From Rhodospirillales bacterium (GTDB lineage: Bacteria > Pseudomonadota > Alphaproteobacteria > SP197), in contig JACONG010000012.1 of assembly GCA_014323865.1 (NCBI GenBank), positions 1 to 64,000 of the forward strand: a DNA stretch of 64,000 nucleotides, in the 5' to 3' direction. The notes below the pieces were generated by a model. It was not told the origin of the DNA, did not search any database, and saw only the letters and a program-made list of their open reading frames with translations. The position numbers were made by a program, and so were the translations under genes. This document shows, piece by piece, positions 41,087 to 50,931 of this stretch (position 1 is the stretch's first letter; each line of letters opens with the position of its first letter).

Positions 41087-42085
41087 TCAGTCGAACTGCT
41101 GTGCGATCTGCTCGGTTCCAACGCCTTCCTTCAGCACACGGAGATCGTGGTAGCTGACCGCCGCAACAGATGCCAAAACCCCTATGCCGATCAACTGTGG
41201 GAACACTAAGATGATGGTGATGGAGAAAAAGTTTACGCGTATCAGGTCTAACGCGCCGACGGCCTCGAACACAAATAATGTGATGAATATCGTGACGAAA
41301 AAGAGCACATAAAAGATCGCGAAGACAGCCAGAGAGACCGCGATGATCGCGATGATGATGGCCAGAACCTTCCAGCGGTAACCCTTCGTCAACGCAATGC
41401 TTCGACCCATCGACGGGAACGGATTTATCTTTTCGACCACGGCAGCCGGCAGTACCACCCACAGCAGGACGAACAGCCAGAGCAGCAGCGCCCACGCCGC
41501 AATCGGACCGATGATCGGAACCATTAATGTCAGAAGAAAAAAGGGAACCATGACGATTATGGATCCAATCAACAACACCACAATCAGGAAAAGCAGGCGC
41601 AGGACGTTCTTCAGGGACTGGATTAGAATCTTGATCCCGTCGGCCTCTCCTCTGTGCAGAAGAGAGACGACACCGTAGGTGATGCCGCCCGACAAGAAGA
41701 AGGATATCGCCATAAATCTAATATTCACTTCGAACATTATCTGGATGCTGTCTAAATCTTTGGACTGCAGGCCGAAGAACTTTACAATCAGGTTGACCAG
41801 CTTTTTGGGCGTCGAGCTGACTTCCTCTTTAATTAGCAGGTTGACGAGATTTCCGAGCAGGTTGACGAGTTCTTTGAGCACGTCGATAAACGCTTCAAAG
41901 CTTGACGGGGGTAGTGTCGGCAAATTCGGCGTAGAGTCCATACTCTCATTCAGGAATAAATCTATTACAATAGCCAGCAGTATGCTGGTGGCCAAGAGAA
42001 CGGGAAGAAACCGTGTCAGATTCCGAAAGTACAAAGAAATCCCGCGTCCCAGCACGGAGCCGATTCGAAACGCCTCGATTTTCAT
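41087..42085 (-). CDS. Multi-pass membrane protein, paralogue of the protein at 50077-50931
   Basis: This 332-residue protein has six or so hydrophobic helices. It begins FRIGSVLGRGISLYFRNLTR, has an ALTKGYRW-type loop (SMGRSIALTKGYRWKVLAII), and ends VAAVSYHDLRVLKEG. The layout and C-terminal YHDLR motif resemble membrane domains related to glycerophosphodiester phosphodiesterase (DUF975/DUF7544-like). The function is unknown. Codon use is richer in A+T than most of the window. A paralogue with the same N- and C-terminal motifs lies beyond the restriction island. Confidence 0.75.
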   Translation of the reverse strand: MKIEAFRIGSVLGRGISLYFRNLTRFLPVLLATSILLAIVIDLFLNESMDSTPNLPTLPPSSFEAFIDVLKELVNLLGNLVNLLIKEEVSSTPKKLVNLIVKFFGLQSKDLDSIQIMFEVNIRFMAISFFLSGGITYGVVSLLHRGEADGIKILIQSLKNVLRLLFLIVVLLIGSIIVMVPFFLLTLMVPIIGPIAAWALLLWLFVLLWVVLPAAVVEKINPFPSMGRSIALTKGYRWKVLAIIIAIIAVSLAVFAIFYVLFFVTIFITLFVFEAVGALDLIRVNFFSITIILVFPQLIGIGVLASVAAVSYHDLRVLKEGVGTEQIAQQFD

Positions 42086-42564: not shown

Positions 42565-45500
42565 TCACGATTTGCACACCAGGTCCATGAGCTTCCCATA
42601 GTCGGTCACAACACCGTATTTTACGCGATTGGCCGCGATATGCTTGCCGATTGCATCGAAAAACCTGTCGGCGCACGCGATCTTCATGTCCTCGATCCCG
42701 CGCAACATCATCGTGGACATGGTGCCTTTCGTCTCGGCGACGAAGTAGATGTGCTGCACGCTGCCATCCCTGAAGGAAATCGCCCAATCGGGGTTGTAGC
42801 CCCCGACAGGCGTGGGAATGAGGAACCCGCGCGGGAGTTTCGCGTAGACAACGACCTCGCTGCTTGTATCCAGTGCCTTCACGAAATTCCTTTCGACATC
42901 GGAGTCGGTGATCGCATAGTCGTAGACGTGTTTCCTGAGCTTAGCCGTGGCTCGGGAAAAATCCTGGCCGGCCTGGTTCGCCGTGAAGATGTCCACGTCG
43001 TAACGCTCCTCAACCTCGTCGTAGGCCAGACCCTCGATCACCATAGAAGCCTTCTGCCCGGCGATGATGCGCGAAGCCTCGGCGATGAAGTGTTCGGGGT
43101 TCATCGCGAATTGCTCAAAAACATCCGGTTTGATCTGGCCGAGGATGTTCGCTGCCGTGTCTCGGGTCAGCGCCGCGTTCCCGGCCACCTTCCCCACGAG
43201 GTCGTACTGCACCGGGGAACGAACCGATTCCCCCTGTTCGGTCGTCGTGCCCGTGCTCGTGAAGGCATCGCCGCGATGAAGCTCGTCATCGGTCAAGGCG
43301 TCACTCTGCACGCCGCTCTGAACCGTATACTGCAGGGGCGTGACCCGAAGCTTGCTATCCAGCTCGGCGACACATTTGCGGATCAGCTCGGCTGATTCGA
43401 ATTCGACCCGGTAAACGGCCTTGCGGTTGATACGCGCCCAGAGCTCCTGGAACTCCTTCTTCTTGAGGTTGTCGTTGAGAGGATTGGTCTTTGGCTTGCG
43501 GCCGTTATCGACCTCGGGCAGTTGCGCGTCGCTGAAGACGCTTTCGATAAGCTGGAAAACCTGCTCGGCGTATGGCTTCAGACCGTCGGGCAAGTCGGCC
43601 AGTTCTCCCCTGGCCCTGGCCTCGTGCCAGGCATCTGCGATCCGGTCCGCATCGTCGGTGTAGTCATGCTTCACCAGATAGCGGTAGATCAGTTTGGCCA
43701 TGGCGGCAGTCACCTCAACCGGGCCACGTTCGGTCGTGAGTGTCTTGCCCGTGAAATAGGCTTGGGTGGCCTGCCGCGGACGCGAGGAGAGGGTGTCCAC
43801 GATTTCCTTCTGCAGCCCGGCCACGAAGTCCGTGTAGCTCTCGCTCGCCACCACGGTCAGCACGTTGATGTCGTGCACCGTCGCCGGGTGGTCCATCCTG
43901 TCCCCGTGCCTGTCGACGCCGAGCCGCAGGCCGCGGCCCACTTCCTGGCGCCGGGAGATGGTGTTGTCGCTGTGTTTCAACATGCACATGACGAAGACGT
44001 TCGGGTTGTCCCACCCTTCGCGCAGCGCCGAGTGCGAGAAAATGAACCGGGTCGGTTCGTCGAAGGACAGCAGGCGCTCCTTGTCCTTGAGGATCAGGTT
44101 GTAGGCGTCCAAGTCGTCGGAATCGCCCGAGCGGGCACCGACGGCCGGATCCTTGAGGCGGTTCGTCTTCCTGTCGATCGAGAAATAGCCGTTGTGGGTC
44201 CGGGCGGAGTCGATGCCGGCGAGATATGTCCGGTATGCCCCGTTGTCGATGGCGAGCGCCGACAGGTACTCGGCCTTCAGCAGGTCATACTCTTCCTCGA
44301 AGACCCGGGCATAGTCGCCTTTCTCGTCGGCCCGGTCGTAATCCCGATACTTCGCCACCTCGTCGATGAAGAACAGCGACAACACCTTGATGCCCTGTGC
44401 GTAGAGCTGTTTTTCCTTGTCCAGGTGCGCCTTGATCGTCTCGCGGATCTGGATACGGCGGATGTCGCGTTCCGTCAGGTCGCACGTGGCCTTGCCGGCT
44501 TCAAGCACCAGGCCATTCGTGAATTCGACGCGGTCGGTTCGCGCATCGATGTCCACAACGAAAAAGCCATTCCTGTATTGATCCAACCCGCCGGACAGGT
44601 CGAAGAGGTTATCGCCATATGCAAGGCGCTTCAGCTGCCGTTTGATCTCGCCCGATGCGAGCCTGATTTCCATCTCGATGCGCGCCACGGGGGCCTTCCT
44701 CGAGATGTCGATGCCTTCGAGGTAGAGATAGGCGTGAGTGCCGGCCAGCCCGCGGGTCTGGATGCCGCGCACCGCGATCTTCTTCACCAGCTTACCGTTG
44801 TAGGCGTCCAGCGCGTCCAGCCGGTGAACGCGGTTGTGCAGGGTCCGGTGCGTCGCCGAATAGCGCAGGATGAACAGCGGCCTGAACTTCGGCAGCGCCT
44901 TCATCGTGGCCTCGCCCTCCATCTTCTGCGGTTCATCCAGGATCAGGATCGGCCGGTTCGAGGCGATCACGTCGATGGGCTTGCGCGACTGGAAGTCGTC
45001 CAGCTCCTCGTGGATGCGCCGGTTGTCGGCCCCGCGCGCGTTGAACGCCTGGATGTTGATCACCATCACGCTGATCCCGTCGTCGGACGAAAAGCTCTCC
45101 AGTTCGTGCAGACGCCTGGAGTTGTAGATAAAAAACCGCGCCTTCCTGCCGTAGCTTTCAGCGAAGTGGTCGGCTGTGATCTGCAGCGACTTCCTGACCC
45201 CTTCGCGGATGGCGATGGACGGCACCATGACGATGAACTTCGACCAGCCATGGCGCTTGTTCAGCTCGAAGATAGTCTTGATGTAGCAATAGGTCTTGCC
45301 GGTGCCGGTCTCCATCTCGACATCGAGGTGAACGTGCGTCGCGGCCAGCGCGTCCTTCCTGTAGGCCGTCCTGACGGGAACGCGTACGCCCTTGCTGTCG
45401 AAGGTCGTGAAGTCCGTCAGCGACTGCGAGTCCGGCAGGTTCTGCCGTCGCTGAACCCTCCGGATGTTCTCCAGGATCTGCTCATCGGTCAGCACGAGGT

Positions 45501-45660
45501 CGGCGTTCCTGAAGCCTTCCTCGAAGGTGCCCGTCTGCGCCCCGCGGCCCGGATCGATGCGATAGGCCGGGCCGGAGGTCATGGGCTGGCCTTCGAAACA
45601 GTCGACCACGTCGTTGACGGCATGGGTCTGATAGGGCTGGACCTTGAACTTGAGCTTCAT
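42565..45660 (-). CDS. Type III restriction enzyme Res subunit
   Basis: This 1031-residue ATP-dependent subunit translocates on or switches along DNA and cuts with Mod. Walker A is [13 protein letters not shown] (119-123 GTGKT). The DEAD-like box is [12 protein letters not shown], the SF2 motif VI region [19 protein letters not shown], and the C-terminal PD-(D/E)XK nuclease reads [11 protein letters not shown] and [14 protein letters not shown] precedes ATG 45660. Length and motifs are intact. Its partner mod is interrupted by a stop codon, which puts function of the system in doubt. The gene's 5' end is part of a tandem duplication. Confidence 0.93.
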
Positions 45661-46612
45661 GGCGTACGCTGCTCCTGTATTCTTTCTGCAAAGCGCCTTC
45701 CGAAGAAACGATGCAGAAAGGGCTAACCTGGTGATATTGCGAGATTTCAGGGGTGAAAAAGCTGTCGGTTATTCTGCAAGTCTCCATTCAGGCTTGCGTC
45801 GCGTGCCTGCATTGAAAATAAGCCCCTGCCGCCGCAGTTTCGTCAGAAGGTTACTGATCCTGACCCGCCTCTGCTCCGGAGACAGGGCATCGCTCAGCTT
45901 ACCGGTCAAAAGGCGGTCGATCCCGGCGCGATCCGCTTTGCCGAACTTGCCCGGATCGTCGAAGAGCAATCGGGCATGATACGCATCGTCCCGGGCGCGT
46001 GTCCGGATGTATTCGGCCTTGCTCGCTGTGGCGGCAGCCACCTTCGCCGAAACGTGAATGTTGGGCTTGCGTCCCTCGATCAGACGCTCGCGCCGAAGAT
46101 GGCAAAGGTCGCTGACGGCATGGGTCTGATAGGGCTGGACCTTGAACTTGAGCTTCATGGCGCACGCTGTTCCTGCATTCTTTACTGCAAAGCGCCTTCC
46201 GAAGAAACGATGCAGAAAGGGCTAACCTATTGATATTGCGAGATTTCAGGGGTGAAAAAGCTGTCGGTCATTCTGCAAGTCTCCATTCAGGCTTGCGTCG
46301 TACGCCTGCATTAAAAATAAGCCCCTGCCGCCGCAGTTTCGTCAGAAGGTTACTGATCTTGACCCGTTTCTGCTCCGGAGACAGGGCGTCGCTCAGCTTA
46401 CCGGTCAAAAGGCGGTCGATCTCGGCGCGATCCGCCTTGCCGAACTTGCCCAGATAGTCGGAGAGCAAGCGGGCATAATACGCATCGTCCTGGGCGCGTG
46501 TCCGGATGTATTCGGCCTTGCTCGCTGTGGCGGCAGCCACCTTCGCCGAAACGTGAATGTTGGGCTTGCGTCCCTCGATGAGACGCTCGCGCCGAAGATG
46601 GCGAAGGCTGTC
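45615..46612. repeat. Tandem duplication of about 499 bp, diverged
   Basis: Bases 45615-46112 and 46113-46612 are two copies of one unit. The Res start region, its 5' flank and the 3' end of the ATP-binding gene each occur twice, with an offset of 498-499. Differences include scattered substitutions and a one-base indel (CTTTCTGC against CTTTACTGC). The copies are close but clearly diverged, so the event is not recent and is unlikely to be an assembly error. Confidence 0.88.
45769..46158 (-). pseudogene. Chimeric ORF from tandem duplication (Res start + ATP-binding protein end)
   Basis: The 129-residue frame starts [17 protein letters not shown], the Res N-terminus, and joins at once to LCHLRRERLIEGRKPNIHVS and on to the C-terminal winged-helix-like end of the ATP-binding gene (NLLTKLRRQGLIFNAG). 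It is the by-product of the duplication, with its own copy of the Res ribosome site. It keeps a full open frame and could make a stand-alone DNA-binding tail. Function is doubtful. Confidence 0.75.
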
Positions 46613-47926
46613 TTCGGATATCGGCAGCCCTTTCTGAACCCGGTCCAACGCCAGTACATTGGCCAACGGCAACCCGGTTCTTTGCATGAGCATCCGGCTG
46701 TAGGCCTTATCGAGGATACGCCCGTGAATCGTTAATTTCACGGCATTCGGCTCGGTTAAATCGTAGTCAGGCAGAGGAAGGAAGCGCTCTTGCTGGCGAC
46801 GATAAATGTCCTGAATGCCATAGCCCATACGATCGATCATGTTCAGTTCGGTCATGGCTTGGGCGAGAAACAGATTGCGATAGCGGCGCGGAACTCTTTC
46901 CCCGAGAACATAATCTTCGGGTTTCTTTTCCTCGAAGAAACCTCCTTCGTTCTGAAAGATCAGTCGGTCAAGCTGCTCGACGATCACAATTTGGCCCGAT
47001 CGGGTGTAATCCTGATGCGCGATGCAGTTATGCAGCGCCTCCAGAACAACTCTTTGATCGTACTTTGAGACTTCGTGTGGCAGCAGTTGATTACCGGGCA
47101 AAATACGAAGCTGGACGTTCCGGATGCGTGAGAACAGCTCCGATGTCGCCAGCAGGAATGGAGGACTGAAATGCTCGTAGGCACGCTCTTCTCCTTCGAG
47201 CTTCCAGGTAATCTCGGCCGGATGGGGATTCAGCATCCACGCCGTCTCCGGCTTTCCCAGCAGCAGAAGGGCCGCTCGGGTAATCTGGCCATTCTGTGTG
47301 ACCTTTGCCCGGTCGAGAAGAACCGCGTCACTCCAACCGGCGATCTCGTCAGCCTGGAACCTGTTCGCGTACTTTTCTGCGAAGCGCTCGCGCGCAAGCT
47401 TCAAGGCGGTATCATCCAGATCGGCGAGGGTCGTGTCCGGCAGGATCTGCGCGGTCCAGTCGGTCGCAAGGGTTTGTGACCGTATCTCGTCCAGCTTCTC
47501 CTGACCGAGCGGGACAAGGCTCTCCCCCGCTCTCCCATAGTAATGCCCCTTCCAGCCGATCGCCATCCCGCGCGGCGCGGCCGGAATCTCGAACAGCACC
47601 ACCCGGTGGCCCGCGTGTGTCAGCACATGAATATCCCGGAACGTGAAGCTGCCCGTCCCGTCCCGGACCTGCTGCTTGTCTGCTTGCAGCCGTTCGGGGG
47701 CTTCCTTGTAGTCGGTACCGCAGACCTGCCGCGTCTTGTCATCGACACCGAAGACAAGCCATGCCCGTTCATACCCACGCAGGTTGGCCTCGTTGGCCAG
47801 AGCCGAAGCGTATTTCCCCAACTTGTCTCTGGAAAAGCTCTTTTCGCCGCGCTTGAACTCGACAACCTCGCTTTCCCAATCGGAGAGCAAGCCGGTCAGC
47901 AGGGTGGGCAGGGCGGTGGAAGCCAT
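46268..47926 (-). CDS. AlbA_2-type ATP-binding DNA-binding protein of the RM operon
   Basis: This 552-residue protein has an N-terminal AlbA_2/Schlafen-like divergent AAA domain (about 15-130; WESEVVEFKRGEKSFSRDKL, YASALANEANL). A central HATPase_c_4-type segment follows (VLEALHNCIAHQDYTRSGQI), and a C-terminal winged-helix region ends it (NVLALDRVQKGLPISEDSL and LLTKLRRQGLIFNAG). Such proteins often sit between mod and res in type III loci and are thought to regulate or bind nucleic acid. ATG 47926 lies 8 bases after the mod stop. The 3' end is duplicated downstream. Confidence 0.82.
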   Translation of the reverse strand: MASTALPTLLTGLLSDWESEVVEFKRGEKSFSRDKLGKYASALANEANLRGYERAWLVFGVDDKTRQVCGTDYKEAPERLQADKQQVRDGTGSFTFRDIHVLTHAGHRVVLFEIPAAPRGMAIGWKGHYYGRAGESLVPLGQEKLDEIRSQTLATDWTAQILPDTTLADLDDTALKLARERFAEKYANRFQADEIAGWSDAVLLDRAKVTQNGQITRAALLLLGKPETAWMLNPHPAEITWKLEGEERAYEHFSPPFLLATSELFSRIRNVQLRILPGNQLLPHEVSKYDQRVVLEALHNCIAHQDYTRSGQIVIVEQLDRLIFQNEGGFFEEKKPEDYVLGERVPRRYRNLFLAQAMTELNMIDRMGYGIQDIYRRQQERFLPLPDYDLTEPNAVKLTIHGRILDKAYSRMLMQRTGLPLANVLALDRVQKGLPISEDSLRHLRRERLIEGRKPNIHVSAKVAAATASKAEYIRTRAQDDAYYARLLSDYLGKFGKADRAEIDRLLTGKLSDALSPEQKRVKISNLLTKLRRQGLIFNAGVRRKPEWRLAE

Positions 47927-47934
47927 GGGTGTGG

Positions 47935-49911
47935 TCAGATCGACTTGATGTCGGTGGTGGGGGAAAGCTGGCGGAAGATCTGGGTGACGTTGGTCTTTAC
48001 CGCGTCCGAGACGAAGCCGTTGTCGCGGAAGACGGCGCGCAGGGGCTCGTGGCGCGCCAGGTCCTTCACCAGAGCCTCGGTGATGACGGGGTCGAAGCAG
48101 GCGACAAGGGCGTTGTCGTCGACGAGGAAGACGGCCTTGTTTGTGCCCTGCACCGTCTCGCGGCGGATGGGCAGCGTCAGGTCCACGCCCCAATCGACCA
48201 GCACCTGGAACAGCAGGTCCTCGGCGGTGCGATCCGCCTTCACGTTGTCAACCATGTTCACGAGGTCGGATTGCTTCAGGTCGTCCGGGCGGTACCAGAC
48301 GTCCTTCATGTTGGACGTGTCCACCTTGAGCACCCGGAAGCCGACATCGCGGTTCCAACCGGGGTGACATTCGCCTTCGAGGATGTTCGCACCCGCGCGG
48401 CGAATGCGTTCCCGACTGACGTCCGGGATCGTCCTGAAACCGGCCTTGAAGGCTTCTGACCTTTCGCCCACTGCCTCATCCAGCTGGACCATGATGAATT
48501 TCCGGTTCCCGCCGTCTTTCGCATTCTGAAGCTTCACGGAATGCGCAGTGGTCGACGACCCCGCGAAGAAGTCGAGAACGATGTCGTCGCCTTCCGTCAT
48601 CATCTCGATAACGTCTTGAAGAACGAGTTCATCCTTGGGGAAGTCGAAAAAATTGCCCCCCATAAGAGCGCGCAAGCGTTTGGAGGCAGCGCGACCGTCC
48701 TGATAAAACACGCTATACGGGGCCTGAAACTCCCTGTCCTTCAGATACCTCTTGATGCAGGGCACTGAATTCTCATCGTCCCCGAAATGAATGCGGTCGT
48801 CGTCAATCCACTCCTGCATGCGCTTTGGGTTGCTTATCCTCCAACCGCTTGAGGGAATCTTTACAGGCTTCCCGGTTCCCGGATGAAGCACCTCATATTG
48901 AGGTCCACCGCCCCCGGGCCAGGAAATGTTGTCAGGGAAATAGATGCCTCACGCATCGACATGGGCATAATGCTTGTGGGCTTTCGCAGGATGACCATGA
49001 GCCAGCGACCGATACCATTCCTTCATGCTCTTGGTCATCGCTTTGTGGTCAGCGCCATGCTGGCGTTTCAGCCGCTCATACTGTGCATGGATATCGTCCA
49101 GACCCTTCTTGCGCTGCCGCCAGGTCACCCCGTTCTCGCGCAGGTATTCTGAATCGCGGGCATAGCAGACGATGTATTCGTGCGAGACGGAAACCAGCCG
49201 CGAGTCGTTCTTGCGCCCGGCCGCCCAAACCATGTCGGCGACGAAGTTGGACTGACCGAATATCTCGTCCATGATCAGGCGCAGCCGTGGCTGTTCGCCC
49301 TCGTCGCAGGAAACGAAGATTGCCCCATCCCGCATCAGCAGATTCTTCGCCAGCCTGAGGCGCGGGGCGATCATGGTCAGCCAGTTGGAATGGAACCGCC
49401 CGTTGCCATCCGGGTTCGCAACAAGACGTTCGCCTTCCTCACTCCGTTCTCCCGAGGCAATCTCGTGCGCCACCTGATCCGCGGCAAAGCGGTCGCGATA
49501 GATGAAATCCTTGCCCGTGTTGTAAGGGGGATCAATGTAGATCAGCTTGACCTGCCCAAGATAGGTTTCCTGGAGAAGCTTCAGCGCTTCGAGGTTGTCG
49601 CCCTCGATGAAGAGGTTCCCGGTCGTGTCGAAGTCAACGCTCTCTTCGCGGCAGGGGCGAAGGGTCTTTGCAATCGGCGCGTTCGCCAGTACCAGCGCCT
49701 CGCGCTTTCCCGGCCAGTCGAGCCGATAACGCTCCTGCGGTCCGTCCACGATGTGGTCGCTCAATTCCTGACGCAGCCGATCGAAGTCCACGGCCAGACG
49801 CAGCTTGCCCGCCTCGTCCCGCGCCTCGGTCACGCAGCCGGGGAACAACGTGCGGAGCTTTGCGATGTTGTCCTGGCTGAGGTCGGGGCTGTGCATCTTC
49901 AGCCTGTCCAT
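47935..49911 (-). pseudogene. Type III DNA methyltransferase mod, interrupted by in-frame TGA
   Basis: This 659-codon gene is intact except for TGA at 48949-48951. The first 320 codons carry the N-terminal region and motif IV LIYIDPPYNTGKDFIYRD, and reach HKHYAHVDA. The next 339 codons, in the same frame, read GIYFPDNISWPGGGGPQYEV, then FFAGSSTTAHSV (SAM motif I) and NRKFIMVQLDEAVGE. This beta-class adenine methyltransferase recognises the site for Res. A single base change (TGA for CGA, Arg) would explain the stop. Loss of protective methylation with intact Res would be lethal, so readthrough, a recoded stop, an inactive Res or a sequencing error must be considered. Confidence 0.88.
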
Positions 49912-50076
49912 ACGCACCCTCTCAATCTCTCAATCATCAACACGGGCATCGACATGGGCGGCGGCGGGACGGCCTGTCCTCATCCGCTCCAGGTCCCGCC
50001 TTGCCGCGCGCAAGCGGGCATGGATCGCCACGCGCCTGTTGAACTGCTTCTCGCACCCCTGCACGAATGACCGTGT

Positions 50077-50931
50077 TCATCGGTTTCCGATACCGGATCC
50101 CCCTGTCCCGCCGCCTTCCTTCACGATGCGAAGGTCATGATAGCCGACCGCCGCGACCGACGCTCCAAGCCCCAGAAGCACGGCCTCGACGATGCTGTAG
50201 ATCAGCACGACGACAATCGACGGCGCGCCGCCGCCGAGCGGACTGACGGCCATGCCCATGCCGGCGAGGAGCAGTGACAGGACAAGACCGATCGCCAGGG
50301 ACAGCACGGTCCACAGCAGAATGACACCAAGCACCGACCAGCGATGCCCCCTGGTCAACTGTGCGCTCCGGCCCAGGCCGGCGATCGGCCCGCCGCCCTC
50401 GACCACGATGGCCGGCACCGCGACCCAGAACATCGCATAGAGCCAGAAGACGATCACAACAAAGGCGATCGCTCCGAGGACCGGAATGACGTTGAGCAAG
50501 ATGATGTTGAGCAAGATCAGGACGATGACGACCGGGATTGCGACCAGGACCAGAAGCAGAAGGCGCGGCACCGAACTCAGGGATCGGACGAGGATCTCGG
50601 TCCCGCCCGCCGATCGTCCCCGCAGATGCGAGACGACACCGTAGGTCACGCCGGCGGAAATCCACATGGCGCACCCCATGAAGACCACGATCATGGCCAG
50701 CCCGCCGACAGCCGACGATCCGGTCACCTCCATGGCGTCAGCAGCGTTCGTCGCGTTCAACAGCGCCGGATCGACCGGAAACACCGGAAGCAGAAGCGCC
50801 AGGACGATGCCCGGGAGGCTGGCAGCCAGCATGAGCGGAACGAAACGCGCGATGTTGGCAAAAAACGTCGAAAGCCCCCGGCCGATGACCTGGCCTGCCC
50901 GAAACCCCGCCCCGAATTCCGTGTTTGTCAT
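50077..50931 (-). CDS. Multi-pass membrane protein, paralogue of 41087-42085
   Basis: This 284-residue protein has about six helices. It begins FRAGQVIGRGLSTFFANIAR, has the central loop LGRSAQLTRGHRWSVLGVIL, and ends VAAVGYHDLRIVKEG. These blocks correspond one by one to the protein at 41087. It is much more GC-rich than that copy. The function is unknown; a role as a membrane scaffold or transport-related domain is a guess. The restriction-modification island lies exactly between the two paralogues. Bases 49912-50076 hold no gene. Confidence 0.78.
   Translation of the reverse strand: MTNTEFGAGFRAGQVIGRGLSTFFANIARFVPLMLAASLPGIVLALLLPVFPVDPALLNATNAADAMEVTGSSAVGGLAMIVVFMGCAMWISAGVTYGVVSHLRGRSAGGTEILVRSLSSVPRLLLLVLVAIPVVIVLILLNIILLNVIPVLGAIAFVVIVFWLYAMFWVAVPAIVVEGGGPIAGLGRSAQLTRGHRWSVLGVILLWTVLSLAIGLVLSLLLAGMGMAVSPLGGGAPSIVVVLIYSIVEAVLLGLGASVAAVGYHDLRIVKEGGGTGGSGIGNR

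Follow-up and report, generated by a model that had tools for sequence, protein, structure and literature searches.

The type III restriction-modification locus of the window (the whole 64,000-nucleotide stretch analysed here) very probably represents the 3' portion of an island gained by horizontal transfer, which has been truncated and whose mod gene was recently inactivated by a nonsense change. The locus has lost its 5' end, carries an in-frame stop in mod and an internal duplication, and encodes proteins that have changed faster than those of a close relative; the genome holds no other close copy of mod and no other type III res. We infer that the locus is inactive and that the stop is recent. 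Most likely it is r-m- and does its host no harm, an ordinary decaying restriction system and not a case of toxic imbalance. The parts of the locus and its borders are as follows:

50077-50931, minus strand: chromosomal membrane-protein gene bordering the island, a paralogue of the gene at 41087-42085
49930-50058, minus strand: DUF4391 remnant (last ~40 codons), 59-62% identical to the Salipiger and Defluviicoccus copies
48952-49911, minus strand: 5' part of mod, with the N-terminal domain, the catalytic motif DPPY and the proximal target-recognition domain (TRD)
48949-48951, minus strand: in-frame TGA, codon 321 from the ATG at 49911; Arg or Lys in close homologues
47935-48948, minus strand: 3' part of mod, with the distal target-recognition lobe, the AdoMet-binding motif FAGSS, the C-terminal domain and the terminal TGA
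46268-47926, minus strand: AlbA_2/Schlafen and HATPase_c_4 gene ("RNA-binding domain-containing"), in the slot between mod and res
46108-46607, minus strand: copy 1 of a tandem duplication (3' end of the AlbA gene, spacer, first codons of res)
45769-46158, minus strand: chimeric ORF of 129 amino acids without a Pfam match, the start of res fused to the tail of the AlbA gene, a product of the duplication
45610-46108, minus strand: copy 2 of the duplication, directly adjoining copy 1
42565-45660, minus strand: res (ResIII helicase and RE_endonuc, 1031 amino acids, open), the sole RE_endonuc match in the genome
42148-42519, minus strand: chromosomal ORF bordering the other side of the island; a 50% identical ORF lies beside the paralogue array of a genus-mate (G005)

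The mod gene runs on the minus strand from an ATG at 49911, with a GTG two codons 5' of it, to the TGA at 47935, and its frame is open on either side of the internal TGA (320 codons upstream and 337 downstream). The read-through Mod of 660 amino acids has a PF01555 match and fits the PADLOC type III methyltransferase model (MTase_III) with 726 bits over residues 3-660; each half also matches this model separately, at profile positions 2-284 and 304-621. Its order, DPPY followed by the recognition domain and then the AdoMet motif, is that of a beta-class N6/N4 Mod. With the TGA at codon 321, the two subunits are not both open frames. In the column of this codon the closest homologues (about 71-83% identical) have arginine (CGA, AGA, CGT, CGC, CGG) or lysine, and none of the closest Mod homologues aligned has a stop. 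The initial annotation, which had described a single in-frame TGA in a type III mod gene, is borne out here, both flanks being open and homologous; its choice of arginine as the likely original residue is well supported by this column and by the CGA at the same position in the Defluviicoccus MAG (L035), an arginine codon one transition away from TGA.

No further stop or frameshift was found in mod, the AlbA-like gene and res (6720 coding bases), and a rough scan of the window gave no other clear homology-supported broken gene. Between 48600 and 49300 there is no phase-variation repeat tract near the stop, which is one nonsense codon with the same frame on both sides. When the in-frame stops of the window that are flanked on each side by 60 open codons were ranked by codon usage, the mod TGA came fifth, and the four stops above it are antisense to stretches that the same scan calls coding. 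Damage to the AdoMet motif (FAGSS versus FAGSG) was ruled out, as FAGSS or SGSS is common to all close homologues. A homologous mod on a short contig of a Saccharibacteria MAG (L044:1246-3225) has 14 stops when its tblastn range is read as one frame; the match runs on in other frames, so that gene is frameshifted or misassembled.

An alignment to the EcoP15I Mod (4ZCF) with HMMER (284 bits) places the stop near EcoP15I residue 312, by our count. In EcoP15I Mod the proximal TRD lobe spans residues 264-300 and the distal lobe 319-376; 3' of the hinge between them follow motif X, the AdoMet-binding motifs I-III and the Res-contacting C-terminal domain (PMC4490356). The stop sits between the two lobes, in the hinge of the recognition domain, so that the fragment would lack the distal lobe, the AdoMet motifs and the Res-contacting domain. 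The upstream fragment keeps DPPY but would be expected to lack both AdoMet binding and the known mode of recruiting Res.

Res combines an SF2 helicase domain with a C-terminal endonuclease domain and matches the PADLOC REase_III model with 1097 bits; the earlier observation that res stays open stands. The phrase "otherwise intact", by contrast, does not hold for the locus: the helicase gene is gone, DUF4391 is truncated, and a duplication covers the junction of the middle gene with res. The duplication is about 499 bp long and 95% identical (474/500 positions, one 1-nt indel), and takes in the tail of the AlbA-like gene, the spacer after it and ~50 bases from the start of res. Once translated, the downstream copy differs at several positions where the upstream copy equals the L038 outgroup (e.g. 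SDYL to FDDP), changes of the kind expected of a putatively non-functional fragment.

All that the 150 bases 5' of mod retain of DUF4391 is its C-terminal ~40 codons (EKQFNRRVAIHARLRAARRDLERM...), which begin ~20 bases after an unrelated membrane-protein gene stops and end 18 bases before the mod ATG. In L034, L035, L037, L039, L040 and L043, a DUF4391 gene and a gene for an SNF2/HKD helicase of ~1090 amino acids lie directly 5' of mod, and the same order of helicase, DUF4391 and mod occurs on plasmids of Acinetobacter (L060), Sulfitobacter (L061) and Neotabrizicola (L062). In L038 and L042, DUF4391 lies farther upstream of mod, with extra genes between. Helicase and DUF4391 precede mod in all homologous loci whose upstream sequence reaches far enough; of these two genes in the helicase-DUF4391-mod-slot-res layout, the window has only the DUF4391 C-terminal remnant. 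The host genome gave no match to the DUF4391 domain, which the same search finds in the Salipiger and Defluviicoccus genomes, and no homologous SNF2/HKD helicase was found in it. A look for sigma-70-like promoters in 49700-50300 gave none, which is a weak negative.

The content of the space between mod and res varies among relatives (L034, L035, L037-L040, L042, L043, L061), which have there nothing, an AlbA_2/Schlafen gene, RhuM (PADLOC PDC-S05), a YhcG-like nuclease (PDC-S02), or an AAA ATPase with DUF4276 (HEC-01). By its gene content, this space seems to serve as a slot for defence-gene cargo. A second slot lies between DUF4391 and mod, with a gene of ~470-540 amino acids starting MQEIICPHCGTAFKIDEA or similar (L038:5574-6983, L042:3421-6920); that of L042 also carries an AAA-type gene.

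Relatives of the flanking paralogues at 50077-50931 and 41087-42085 form a tandem array in the genus-mates G004 and G005, and res has no match in any of the nine genus-mates (0/9). The 7.5-kb locus is therefore most simply read, from these comparisons, as an insertion into a chromosomal paralogue array. The two flanking membrane-protein paralogues have no Pfam match and differ strongly in GC (0.51 for 41087-42085 and 0.64 for 50077-50931). No relatives were found among viral contigs. There is no second close mod copy in the genome, the other matches being ~31% identical pieces of one 597-aa frame.

The changes in Mod and Res were compared between the window and Salipiger (L034) by a relative-rate test, with L035 or L037 as outgroup. 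For Res, the window has 98 amino-acid changes and Salipiger 35 with outgroup L035 (chi2 29.8), and 72 and 33 with L037; at the fourfold sites of res the window has 33 and Salipiger 53 (outgroup L035). The N part of Mod gives 26 versus 11 (L035) and 21 versus 11 (L037, chi2 3.1, not significant), and the C part 25 versus 17 (L035, not significant) and 40 versus 8 (L037), a last figure that recombination may have inflated, since Salipiger and L037 group together in the mod tree. Window Mod and Res have thus changed 2-3 times faster in amino acids since the split from the nearest relative, with no synonymous excess, which is consistent with relaxed or shifted constraint. The acceleration shows chiefly in the comparison with one sister sequence, and a change of host instead of loss of function could explain it. 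Changes unique to the window at Mod sites that do not otherwise vary were also considered; their excess is significant against L034, L035 and L037 and not against longer-branched relatives, and because of this unevenness we relied on the relative-rate test instead.

About 3% of random substitutions in the 6720 coding bases create a stop, and at 5% neutral divergence ~10 stops would be expected in mod, the AlbA gene and res, where one is seen. On these counts, long full neutrality of the locus is excluded, and as there is no other stop or frameshift in these bases, the loss of function must be recent; apart from the one stop, these sequences have kept the look of genes. The stop would be younger than the duplication if the ~5% divergence of the copies is a measure of time, a dating that fails if the copies recombined with a diverged locus.

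These data suggest a course of events in which an island with the order helicase, DUF4391, mod, slot gene and res would have been acquired horizontally and would then have lost the helicase gene and most of DUF4391, two genes that classical type III systems function without. A nonsense change at the conserved arginine codon of mod would end translation in the TRD hinge; without Mod, Res would not be directed to DNA and would not cut. The outcome would be r-m-, with no methylation, no restriction and no self-toxicity. The initial annotation had argued that an active Res without Mod should be toxic. This is contradicted by the MmyCI system of Mycoplasma mycoides, where the purified enzyme shows no cleavage when one or the other subunit is missing, and where a clone with a frameshifted mod and res present is viable and lacks MmyCI activity (PMC3498834). 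Mod is moreover thought to shield Res from proteolysis or to stabilise it, and the lethal r+m- state of EcoP1 came from Mod mutants unable to bind AdoMet that still direct restriction (PMC3874151), a case from which a truncated Mod without the Res-contacting domain differs. Because Res without Mod is idle and does not cut, the locus is expected to be r-m-; with its first two genes lost and a stop in mod, the system is most likely off and harmless, which agrees with a dead system as one of the options listed at the outset. Two plasmids, those of Acinetobacter (L060) and Sulfitobacter (L061), likewise have an IS-interrupted mod and a res annotated as full length; the insertions in the homologous mod are of the IS1 family (L060:8007-10324) and the IS256 family (L061:8591-11263).

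We consider it unlikely that the TGA arose in sequencing or assembly, or belongs to one of several alleles in a mixed population, with an open allele and a system that works although the upstream genes are absent. The host assembly is a draft in 18 contigs, only one disabling change is present in 6720 coding bases, and the TGA is a single transition from a relative's arginine codon. The 5' truncation, the duplication and the faster change in Res and Mod, however, fit a locus that was already losing function, and the rough scan for broken genes in the window found no other clear case with homology support. Programmed or leaky readthrough of the TGA, giving low levels of full-length Mod, would accord with the basal near-cognate readthrough that occurs in bacteria and with the selenocysteine tRNA of the host (L050, G000:C4:229876-229966, 75 bits, anticodon TCA), but is very improbable: RF2 is encoded in the host genome, TGA is the commonest stop of the window frames and also ends mod itself, the hairpin 3' of the TGA is not unusually stable (z = 0.29 and 1.56), and the homologous residue is Arg/Lys and not Cys. 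Despite this tRNA, selenocysteine at codon 321 was rejected, as the homologues have Arg/Lys instead of Cys and the folding is no better than that of shuffles; a recoded genetic code was rejected too, RF2 being present and TGA a common stop.

We give hardly any credence to a functional split Mod, in which the N-terminal piece would join a C-terminal piece with its own translation start to form an active methyltransferase. The break does fall in the hinge between the TRD lobes, and fragments of some DNA methyltransferases complement each other (PMC3404938); yet the first in-frame start is a GTG 20 codons past the stop, without a well-placed Shine-Dalgarno and at the cost of the conserved NISWPGGGGP..YE stretch, and no close relative is split likewise. 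That the TGA is tolerated by either route, through two halves of Mod split at the hinge or regulated readthrough, to give a low-methylation type III system, thus also seems most improbable. Our preferred reading, a truncated island with a recently inactivated mod, offers a snapshot of island loss, from horizontal gain through 5' gene loss and internal duplication to the nonsense mutation of mod. A common intuition on restriction-modification imbalance is corrected as well: a type III system that loses mod has its Res disarmed, not released, so that loci with a null mod and an intact res are to be expected, and they do occur.

Among known systems, the locus resembles EcoP15I and EcoP1I in its beta-class Mod, whose recognition domain follows DPPY and precedes the AdoMet motif, in a Res with helicase and endonuclease domains, and in having mod before res on the same strand; it differs from them in the nonsense codon of mod, in the AlbA_2 gene between mod and res, and in its origin from a larger helicase-DUF4391-mod-slot-res island. 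The mod-off variant of MmyCI in M. mycoides also has a mod that ends early and a res that is present, with MmyCI inactive and the cells viable (PMC3498834), but it switches by AG-repeat slippage, whereas the window has a point substitution and no repeat tract at the site. The closest relatives, Salipiger marinus (L034) and the Defluviicoccus MAG (L035), share 82-84% identity in Mod and 75-80% in Res; unlike the window locus, they are complete and open, keep the helicase and DUF4391, and have nothing between mod and res. The plasmid of Sulfitobacter sp. OXR-159 (L061) has the same succession of mod, an AlbA-like RNA-binding-domain gene and res, with mod interrupted and res annotated as full length, although there the interruption is an IS256-family element and not a nonsense codon, and the helicase and DUF4391 are present.
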